Shown here piece by piece: positions 53,912 to 56,765 of a stretch of 64,000 nucleotides of DNA (position 1 is its first letter; every line of letters starts with the position of its first letter). Source of the DNA: Paenirhodobacter ferrireducens (GTDB taxonomy: Bacteria; Pseudomonadota; Alphaproteobacteria; Rhodobacterales; Rhodobacteraceae). The position numbers and the translations under genes are program-made. The notes under the pieces were generated by a model. That model was not told the origin of the DNA and searched no databases. It saw only the letters and a program-made list of their open reading frames with translations. The stretch lies in assembly GCF_004022265.1 (NCBI RefSeq), contig NZ_SAVB01000015.1, positions 62,001 to 126,000 on the forward strand, read 5' to 3'.

Positions 53912-54625
53912 ATGCGCCCCTCCGGCAGAAATCTAAGTGAATGCCGCCCGATTTCAATCGAAACCGGGATCACGAAACATGCCGAGGGCTCGTGCCTGAT
54001 CAAGGTCGGTGACACCCATGTGCTGTGCACCGCGACGATCGAGGATCGTGCGCCCTCCTTCCTGAAGGGCACCGGGCTGGGCTGGGTGACGGCGGAATAC
54101 GGCATGCTGCCGCGCGCCACCAATTCGCGCACCCGGCGCGAGGCAGCGGCCGGCAAGCAGTCGAGCCGCACGCAGGAGATCCAGCGCCTGATCGGCCGCG
54201 CCCTGCGCGCCGGCGTCGACCGCTCGGCCCTTGGCGAGCGCCAGATCGTCGTCGACTGCGACGTGATCCAGGCCGATGGCGGCACCCGCTGCGCCTCGAT
54301 CACCGGGGGCTGGGTGGCGCTGCGTCTTGCGGTGAACAAGCTGCTGAAATCGGGGCTGATCGCCTCGGACCCGCTGCTTGACCATGTCGCGGCGATTTCC
54401 TGCGGCATCTATGCCGGCCAGCCGGTGTGCGACCTCGATTATGCCGAGGACAGCGAGGCGGGCACCGACGGCAACTTCATCATGACCGGCGCCGGCAAGC
54501 TGATCGAGGTGCAGATGTCGGCCGAGGGCGCGACCTTCTCGCGCGACGAGATGACGAAGCTTCTCGACCTGGCCGAGGCGGGCGTGGCGCAGCTGGTCGC
54601 GGCGCAGAAGGCGGCGCTGGCATGA
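53912..54625 (+). CDS. rph: Ribonuclease PH
   Basis: RNase PH trims the 3' ends of tRNA precursors by phosphorolysis. It has 237 residues, with [20 protein letters not shown] at the start, [21 protein letters not shown], the phosphate-binding [30 protein letters not shown], and DADGGTR-type sequence ([15 protein letters not shown]). AAAGGA precedes the ATG at 53912. It is divergent from hrcA across about 110 bases, and its stop overlaps the rdgB start by four bases. Confidence 0.96.
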
Positions 54626-55611
54626 GGAAATTCACCGGCGACAGGCTGCTGTTCGCCACCCACAACAAGGGCAAGCTGGAGGAGATGCGGGCGCTGCTCG
54701 CGCCCTTCGGCATCACCGTGCTGTCGAACGACGATTTCGGCCTGCCCGAGCCCGAGGAAACCGAGACGACCTTCGTCGGCAATGCCCGGATCAAGGCACA
54801 TGCGGCGGCGAAGGCCACCGGCCTGCCGGCGCTGTCCGACGACAGCGGCATCGAGGTGGACGCGCTGGATGGCGCGCCCGGTGTCTATACCGCCGATTGG
54901 GCCGAGACCCCGAACGGGCGTGACTTCACCCTTGCGATGACCCGCACCTGGGACGCCTGCGAGAAGATCGCCGCACCGATGCCGCGCACCGCACGCTTCC
55001 GCTCGACCCTCGTGCTCGCCTGGCCAGATGGCCATGACGAGGTCTTCGAGGGCAAGGCCGAGGGCCAGCTTGTCTGGCCGATGCGCGGTGCGCATGGCCA
55101 TGGCTATGACCCGATGTTCCAGCCCGAGGGCCATGACATCACCTTCGCCGAGATGGACCCGGCGAAGAAGAACCAGATCAGCCACCGCGCGGATGCCTTC
55201 CGCAAGCTGGTGCAATGTTTCGAGGCGAAAATGGCACGACAGAACATCTCGGGCGGCTCGCCCTATGAACCGAAACTTGGCTATTCGCGCGCCGTGGTGC
55301 AGGGCGACTGGTGCTTCGTCGCCGGCACGACCGGCGCCGATCCGGTCAGCAAGACCTTCCCGGACAGCGTTCTCGATCAGGCGCGCAATGCGCTTGCGAC
55401 GATCAAGGGCGTTCTGGAAGGCGCAGGCTTCTCGATGGCCGATGTGGTGCGGGCGAATTACGTCATCACCGATGCGGCCTATGTCGAGGAAATCATCCCG
55501 GCCCTGTCCGAGACCTTCGGCGAGATCCGCCCGGCCGCGATGATGATCGTCGCGGGGCTGGTGAATCCGGCGATGAAGATCGAGATCGAAGTGACGGCGT
55601 TCAAGGGATGA
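54622..55611 (+). CDS. rdgB: RdgB (dITP/XTP pyrophosphatase) fused in frame to a Rid-family domain
   Basis: Residues 1-203 are a complete RdgB/Ham1 house-cleaning NTP pyrophosphatase: [46 protein letters not shown], then [12 protein letters not shown] and [14 protein letters not shown], which removes deaminated purine nucleotides. With no stop codon the frame continues through FEAK into [18 protein letters not shown], a complete Rid/YjgF-type domain ([39 protein letters not shown]), for 329 residues total. The Met at 55231 follows CGAGG, so the Rid part could also be made separately. In related genomes these are usually two adjacent genes. The catalytic Arg of RidA is not clearly aligned (Arg303 is two places off). 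Confidence 0.85.
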
Positions 55612-56765
55612 GCGACGATTGGCGGCACGGCGGGTTCGGCCTTTATCTGCACTGGCCCTTCTGTGCCGCCAAATGCCCCTATTGCGATTTCAACAGCCAT
55701 GTGGCGGCGGAAATCGACCAGGCCCGCTGGCAGCGCGCCTATCTTGCCGAGATCGACCGTCTGGGCGTCGAAACGCAGGACCGGGTGCTGAACTCGGTCT
55801 TCTTCGGCGGCGGCACCCCCTCGCTGATGGACCCAGACCTTGTCGCCGCGATCCTCGAGCGGGTGCGGCGCACCTGGCGGCAGGCGAATGACATCGAGAT
55901 CACCCTCGAGGCGAACCCCACCAGCATCGAATCCGGCCGGTTCAGAGCCTATTCCGAGGGCGGGGTGAACCGCATCTCGATGGGGATGCAGGCGCTGAAC
56001 GATGCCGATCTGACACGGCTTGGCCGGATGCACAGCGCCGCCGAGGGCCGCGCTGCCTTCGACATCGCCCGCAGCCATTTCGACCGCGTCAGCTTCGATC
56101 TGATCTATGCGCGCCAGGATCAGGACCTGACCGCCTGGGAGGCCGAACTGCGCGAGGCGCTGGCGATGGCGGTGGATCACTTCTCGCTTTACCAGCTGAC
56201 GATCGAGGAAGGCACCGCCTTTGGGCGCCGTGCCGCGGCCGGCAAGCTGACCGGCCTGCCCGACGAGGAACTGGCCGCCGACATGTATCTGCGCACGCAG
56301 GAGATCTGCGAGGCGGCCGGGCTTCCGGCTTATGAAGTGTCGAACCACGCCCGCGAGGGGGCGCAAAGCCGGCACAACCTGATCTATTGGCGCTATGGCG
56401 ATTACGCCGGCATCGGCCCTGGGGCGCATGGCCGGCTGACCCTTGGCGGCACGCGGCAGGCGACGGTCACGCCCAAGCCCCCTGCCCTGTGGCTGCAAGC
56501 CGTGGAACAGCGTGGCTCGGGGGAACTCCCGCGCGAGGAATTGCCGCTCGAGGATCAGGCGGTCGAATTCCTGCTGTTCGGGCTGCGGCTGAGCGAGGGG
56601 ATCGATCCGGCGCGCTATCGCGCGCTGTCGGGCACTGACCTGCCCGCCGAAAAGCTCGCCGATCTGGGCGAGCTGGGTCTGGTCGAAACCCTGGATGGCC
56701 GGATCCGCGCAACCCGTGAGGGCCGCGCGGTGCTGAATGGCGTGATCCGGGAGTTGATGCCCTGA
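55608..56765 (+). CDS. hemW: Heme chaperone HemW (radical SAM family)
   Basis: HemW is a radical-SAM-like heme chaperone, often mis-annotated as oxygen-independent coproporphyrinogen oxidase. It has 385 residues. The cluster motif is C-x3-C-x2-C in WPFCAAKCPYCDFN (near residues 17-28), followed by FFGGGTPSLMD, NRISMGMQALND, FDLIYARQDQD and VSNHAREGAQSRHNLIYWRYGDYAGIGPGAHG. The HNLIYW...GIGPGAH form is HemW-like. Its ATG overlaps the fusion gene stop by four bases. It converges with parB over a 3-base gap. Confidence 0.93.
   Translation: MSDDWRHGGFGLYLHWPFCAAKCPYCDFNSHVAAEIDQARWQRAYLAEIDRLGVETQDRVLNSVFFGGGTPSLMDPDLVAAILERVRRTWRQANDIEITLEANPTSIESGRFRAYSEGGVNRISMGMQALNDADLTRLGRMHSAAEGRAAFDIARSHFDRVSFDLIYARQDQDLTAWEAELREALAMAVDHFSLYQLTIEEGTAFGRRAAAGKLTGLPDEELAADMYLRTQEICEAAGLPAYEVSNHAREGAQSRHNLIYWRYGDYAGIGPGAHGRLTLGGTRQATVTPKPPALWLQAVEQRGSGELPREELPLEDQAVEFLLFGLRLSEGIDPARYRALSGTDLPAEKLADLGELGLVETLDGRIRATREGRAVLNGVIRELMP

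Follow-up and report, generated by a model that had tools for sequence, protein, structure and literature searches.

Among described systems, E. coli RdgB, a homodimer, comes closest to the N-terminal half of the protein reported here. The two are alike in this domain (Foldseek 34% identity, TMt 0.85 to PDB 1k7k; also 2pyu and 2q16), whereas the protein encoded in the window (the whole 64 000-nucleotide stretch of Paenirhodobacter ferrireducens DNA that was analysed) adds a C-terminal Rid domain. The HAM1-type fold is also shared by KomB, the HAM1-like protein of the KomBC complex (PDB 8zsg, 9v0g), at 24% identity. KomB, however, is unfused and, according to the PDB titles, has a separate partner and a helical assembly, whereas the gene in the window lies between rph and hemW. 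The helical KomBC complex is itself another high-order assembly of the HAM1 fold.

For the C-terminal half, the nearest solved chain is M. tuberculosis Rv2704 (3i7t), which has the same fold (TMt 0.91, 39% identity) and likewise lacks the arginine of RidA, but in the window the Rid domain is joined behind RdgB. Rid domains are covalently joined in 3x-RidA and other known Rid fusions too; those named in the partial text of PMC4433059, however, are Rid–Rid tandems, not joined to a nucleotide pyrophosphatase. The open-licence literature that we searched contained no description of an RdgB–Rid fusion. Both families are old, and it is the architecture and its repeated origin that seem to be new.

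The fused gene and its RdgB half

A single open reading frame of 329 aa (35.6 kDa; TGA at 55609–55611) runs through both domains (Table 1). This is as the sequence-only reading had it: the stop between RdgB and Rid is absent, and the coordinates of the frame are correct. Each domain has a Pfam match above its cut-off (Ham1p_like, 202.9 bits, cut-off 22.5; Ribonuc_L-PSP, 72.4 bits, cut-off 27.3). The RdgB–Rid join is a genuine gene fusion. In an AlphaFold2 monomer model (mean pLDDT 92, pTM 0.72; pLDDT 71 for the residue block 201–210), both domains appear to hold their folds on either side of a short linker. Foldseek against the PDB matched each half separately, with no chain spanning both domains among the best 50 of 952 matches. 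The neighbouring genes we take to be rph (RNase PH) upstream and a hemW-like gene downstream.

Table 1. Positions of the fused gene, its parts and its neighbours in the window.
Feature	Position	Strand	Basis or remark
rph (RNase PH), presumed	53912..54625	+	sequence; stop overlaps rdgB start (ATGA)
Fused rdgB-rid gene	54622..55611	+	open frame; fusion of like kind in G008, G005, G010, G041, G410, G411, G412
RdgB/Ham1 domain, residues 9-198	54646..55215	+	PF01725, TIGR00042, E. coli RdgB PDB 1k7k/2pyu
Predicted linker, residues 200-206	55219..55239	+	AlphaFold2 model; short, from last RdgB helix (188-199) to first Rid strand (207-209)
GAGG, Shine-Dalgarno-like	55222..55225	+	5 nt upstream of internal ATG; position matches GAGG before rid in unfused relatives
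Internal in-frame ATG, Met204 (codon 204)	55231..55233	+	former rid start; matches rid start of unfused relatives
Rid/L-PSP domain, residues 218-326	55273..55599	+	PF01042; Rv2704 (3i7t) best Rid match in PDB
Ala306 codon at RidA catalytic arginine position	55537..55539	+	phmmer alignments to PH0854 and TM0215
hemW-like gene, presumed	55608..56765	+	sequence; start overlaps stop of fused gene (ATGA)

The RdgB half is a member of the RdgB/HAM1 family of non-canonical purine NTP pyrophosphatases by its match to the curated NCBIfam model TIGR00042 (158.2 bits, cut-off 145.35); other RdgB-type NCBIfam models scored below their own cut-offs, the highest being NF011397 (173.7 against 234). The motifs THNxGK, NAxxKA, DDSG, GYDP and SHR are invariant in the seven fused proteins that were aligned (G008 left out) and align with E. 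coli RdgB (residues 8–197), which has TGN where the fused protein has THN. Residues of these motifs we presume to be catalytic, and this half looks active, with predicted hydrolysis of ITP, XTP and dITP.

Gene neighbourhood, distribution and number of origins

To place the fusion among its relatives, we compared 145 loci with distinct RdgB, a sample biased to close relatives with some loci from other families of the class. Eighty-six have no recognised Rid after rdgB, 51 have an adjacent but unfused rid and eight are fused, with rph upstream of rdgB in 142 of the 145. Among the 86, hemW follows rdgB within 120 nt in 78, after a longer gap in six and nowhere nearby in two, and the translated frames of the six loci with the longer gap, which came from the class search, showed no Rid. 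Where both genes are present, hemW lies beyond the Rid in every case (59/59). Thus part of the family carries rid between rdgB and hemW, and RdgB needs no Rid partner in general, as the two genes stay separate in 51 of 59 loci and hemW comes straight after rdgB in 78 of 145.

The 51 unfused pairs are tightly packed: stop and start overlap by 4 nt in 29, the distance from the first base of the rdgB stop to the rid start is 4 nt in 15, and the rid start falls within −5 to +6 nt of that stop in 50. In the sole long-gap pair (L062, Roseinatronobacter sp.) the distance between these two points is 81 nt. Comparison of the junction in G017 (TTCGAGGCCTGACATG) with that of the window (TTCGAGGCGAAAATG) shows no TGA in the latter, which is also shorter by one base.

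The same fusion, which the sequence-only reading had suggested looking for in relatives, occurs in eight genomes, the window's included, across three genera. Within the window's genus, four of the 18 genomes compared are fused, in two junction forms: the window's genome (G000) and G008 encode 329 aa with the junction ATG kept, and G010 and G005 encode 326 aa with the junction three residues shorter and the ATG gone. In 13 other genomes of the 18 rdgB and rid are adjacent but separate, and the search of these 18 gave no rdgB match in G012 (81% complete). Outside the genus, the fusion is present in G041 (326 aa; the one genome sampled of its genus) and in genus g13, where three of four genomes have it (G410, G411 and G412, the last being KA09; 327 aa). 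The fourth, G029, is unfused: one TGA, immediately ahead of the rid ATG and sharing its frame, parts the two genes, so that the stop-start of the unfused pair is already in frame there. This pair (L033) is one stop codon from fusion, or a site where stop readthrough would yield a fused protein. Family-wide, three genomes of 394 (G000, G008 and G041) are fused among the matches listed. Searches of 385 class genomes, 398 phylum genomes and 389 relatives gave no fusion outside the three genera among the matches listed; with thresholds of 1e-60, 1e-75 and 1e-125, a truncated class listing and the sampling used, fusions in distant or unsampled genomes may have escaped them. The one sampled genome of G241's genus, which adjoins g13 in the tree, is not fused.

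A combined RdgB and Rid tree of all 59 loci with both genes, eight of them fused, requires the fused state to change three times; starred branches force every one of these changes, and none of 500 shuffles was as low. Topology tests reject both a single clade for all the fused rows (p-AU 5.66e-6) and a union of the window's clade with that of g13 (p-AU 3.2e-38). Taken singly, the two proteins each require at the fewest four changes, of which starred branches force three on the RdgB tree and two on the Rid tree, and the four fused members of the window's genus form one clade on either (99/96 for RdgB, 82/87 for Rid). Change counts alone cannot separate gain from loss; gains are the simpler reading, since unfused loci are the majority. 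The fusion thus read arose at least twice, and probably three times, at the same junction, with the origin in G041 the least sure because of its long branch.

Both halves of the fused protein are under purifying selection. Nei–Gojobori estimates, made separately for the two halves in 12 pairs, place dN far below dS in both halves, including all six fused–fused pairs. The dN and dS values are 0.0022/0.099 for RdgB and 0.0055/0.151 for Rid in G000 and G008, 0.085/0.95 and 0.18/1.0 in G010 and G005, and 0.055/0.85 and 0.030/0.99 in KA09 and G411; between KA09 and G410 silent sites are saturated (dS 1.4 and 2.1).

Proposed covalent locking of a coupled pair, and its main rival

In our reading, to which we give a probability of about 0.5, the fusion locked into one covalent chain an RdgB and a Rid that were already coupled. 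In a sub-group of Rhodobacter-like bacteria rid lies between rdgB and hemW, usually overlapping or nearly touching rdgB, and translation of the pair is probably coupled. Loss of the rdgB stop with the frames in register would have placed an RdgB that hydrolyses ITP, XTP and dITP and an arginine-less Rid on one chain, both in the lineage of the window and independently in one further lineage at least, probably in two. The fusion would thereby fix a 1:1 association of two proteins already working together, with catalysis left to the RdgB half and the Rid half serving in oligomerisation or ligand binding, and the kept GAGG–ATG may also give some free Rid in the window's lineage. The unfused pair probably acts together, because short gene overlaps are over-represented where the products are subunits of heteromeric complexes (partial text of PMC10666635). 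The product should form a larger assembly, because relatives of RdgB are dimers, the T. brucei and human ITPases of this family being homodimers (partial text of PMC9016069), and Rid proteins are typically trimers (partial text of PMC4433059). It is from gene packing and recurrence alone that we infer co-function of RdgB and Rid.

The main rival is that the join is neutral, that is, tight packing makes stop loss easy and the joined protein is no better than two separate ones. This reading, which we regard as quite possible if short of even odds, is strong because very few mutations suffice, and drift can also fuse tightly packed genes. Overlapping or near-touching genes are the rule in the unfused loci (50 of 51), and in g13 one in-frame stop directly before the rid ATG parts the two states, so that fusion there is mutationally easy. 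The short linker and the predicted retention of both folds fit a neutral join as well, as does its rarity in the family (the three genomes of 394 among the matches listed). On the other hand, neutrality sits less easily with at least two and probably three origins at the same junction, or with a join that persists at dS ~0.6 or more within each of the two multi-member lineages. It is also opposed by G005, whose junction has no start codon left and which makes this Rid only in fused form. None of these points gauges a benefit.

A more elaborate version of covalent locking, which we offer as tentative and on balance doubtful, is a dimer-times-trimer block in which RdgB dimers bridge Rid trimers into a hexamer or closed cage. 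The arginine-less Rid clefts would then be metabolite sensors that tune the pyrophosphatase, and free Rid, in the window's species, would cap or thin the assembly. If so, arginine-less Rid proteins, the functions of whose subfamilies were called completely unknown in 2015 (partial text of PMC4433059), would gain a function in nucleotide-pool quality control. The repeated covalent join with RdgB is ‘Rosetta stone’ evidence pointing to nucleotide-pool cleaning. The loci can also be arranged as a series, from separate or overlapping genes through a single in-frame stop and a fusion with its start kept to a fusion with its start lost, which cleanly illustrates a packed operon pair becoming a two-domain protein.

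Possible internal start, arginine-less Rid and the rid slot

The sequence-only reading had further proposed that the retained internal ATG yields a Rid-only product. A second product from this start, predicted at 126 aa and 13.3 kDa, is plausible in the window's lineage, where the start is indeed retained (GAGG-CGAAA-ATG in G000; GAGG-CGAAG-ATG, a silent change, in G008), but the proposal does not extend to the fusion in general, since G005 and G010 have no such ATG. That the gene gives mainly two products, with free Rid from internal initiation at this ATG and the long chain minor or cut at the linker, seems to us rather unlikely. In its favour, G000 and G008 preserve the 5-nt spacing of GAGG and ATG, an in-frame ATG survives in KA09 and G411, and G410 has an in-frame GTG preceded by GGAGG. 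However, the junction of G005 lacks a start codon, which confines this Rid to the fused form there unless initiation occurs at a later internal site; G010 offers only a poorly spaced GTG, and G041 has a GTG without an evident GAGG. As well, among the 262 internal in-frame ATGs of 42 long ORFs used as proxies in the window, 13 have GAGG 4–9 nt upstream, so that the combination alone is unremarkable, its value lying in the correspondence to the rid start of unfused relatives. Finally, loss of the upstream stop removes the option of stop-start reinitiation, and a Rid-only product would need direct initiation.

A bifunctional sanitation enzyme, also put forward in the sequence-only reading, would combine ITP/XTP hydrolysis with RidA-type imine or enamine hydrolysis. 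The first part stands, in that the RdgB half looks active; the second fares poorly, and we consider the combination improbable. The Rid half does belong to the Rid superfamily (YjgF/YER057c/UK114), given its PF01042 match and its Rid fold, and the 59 Rid rows retain the RidA-site Tyr (59/59) and, by pattern, an IEIE-type Glu (57/59). It lacks, however, the catalytic arginine of RidA/Rid1–3 imine hydrolases (Arg105 of E. coli TdcF): Ala306 stands at the R of PAR in PH0854 and TM0215, and none of the 59 rows has Arg at this position (Ala 58, Ser 1; motif RPAA in 56, and RPAS, QPAA and RTAA in one each). By pattern, with Arg absent and Glu present, it falls with the arginine-less Rid4–7 subfamilies. 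Its scores are 46 bits against the RidA model TIGR00004 (cut-off 106.25) and 42.1 against the RutC model TIGR03610 (cut-off 169.1). According to the partial text of PMC4433059, Arg-to-Ala replacement nearly abolishes imine hydrolysis in RidA, the subfamilies without Arg are judged most likely not to be imine hydrolases, and ~10% of RidA proteins have Ser at the arginine position. Since Ala replaces the arginine that RidA needs, the Rid half is probably not a RidA-type imine deaminase. Nor need the cell depend on it as RidA, because the same genome has six other PF01042 copies, four of which show a RidA-type Arg (by eye). Including the fused gene, the genome has seven PF01042 places, and the other six genes lie on contigs 8, 12, 13, 16, 20 and 59 of G000 (L176–L180 and L182), whereas the window belongs to contig 6.

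Loss of a stop codon through sequencing or assembly error, which the presence of the stop in most relatives might suggest, can be dismissed with near certainty, because G008 shares the fusion despite 27 differing codons, nearly all silent (14 of 198 in RdgB and 13 of 122 in Rid, with just one amino-acid change in each), and six further genomes are fused, the eight together having three protein lengths (326, 327 and 329 aa).

Across the 59 loci that have both genes, the slot after rdgB is filled by two types of Rid. The type found in the window (25 rows, chosen by motif after the sequences were seen) forms one clade in the Rid tree (100/99), yet needs four changes on the RdgB tree, three of them forced; it therefore seems that several swaps or transfers have affected the rid at this position, with the slot itself kept.
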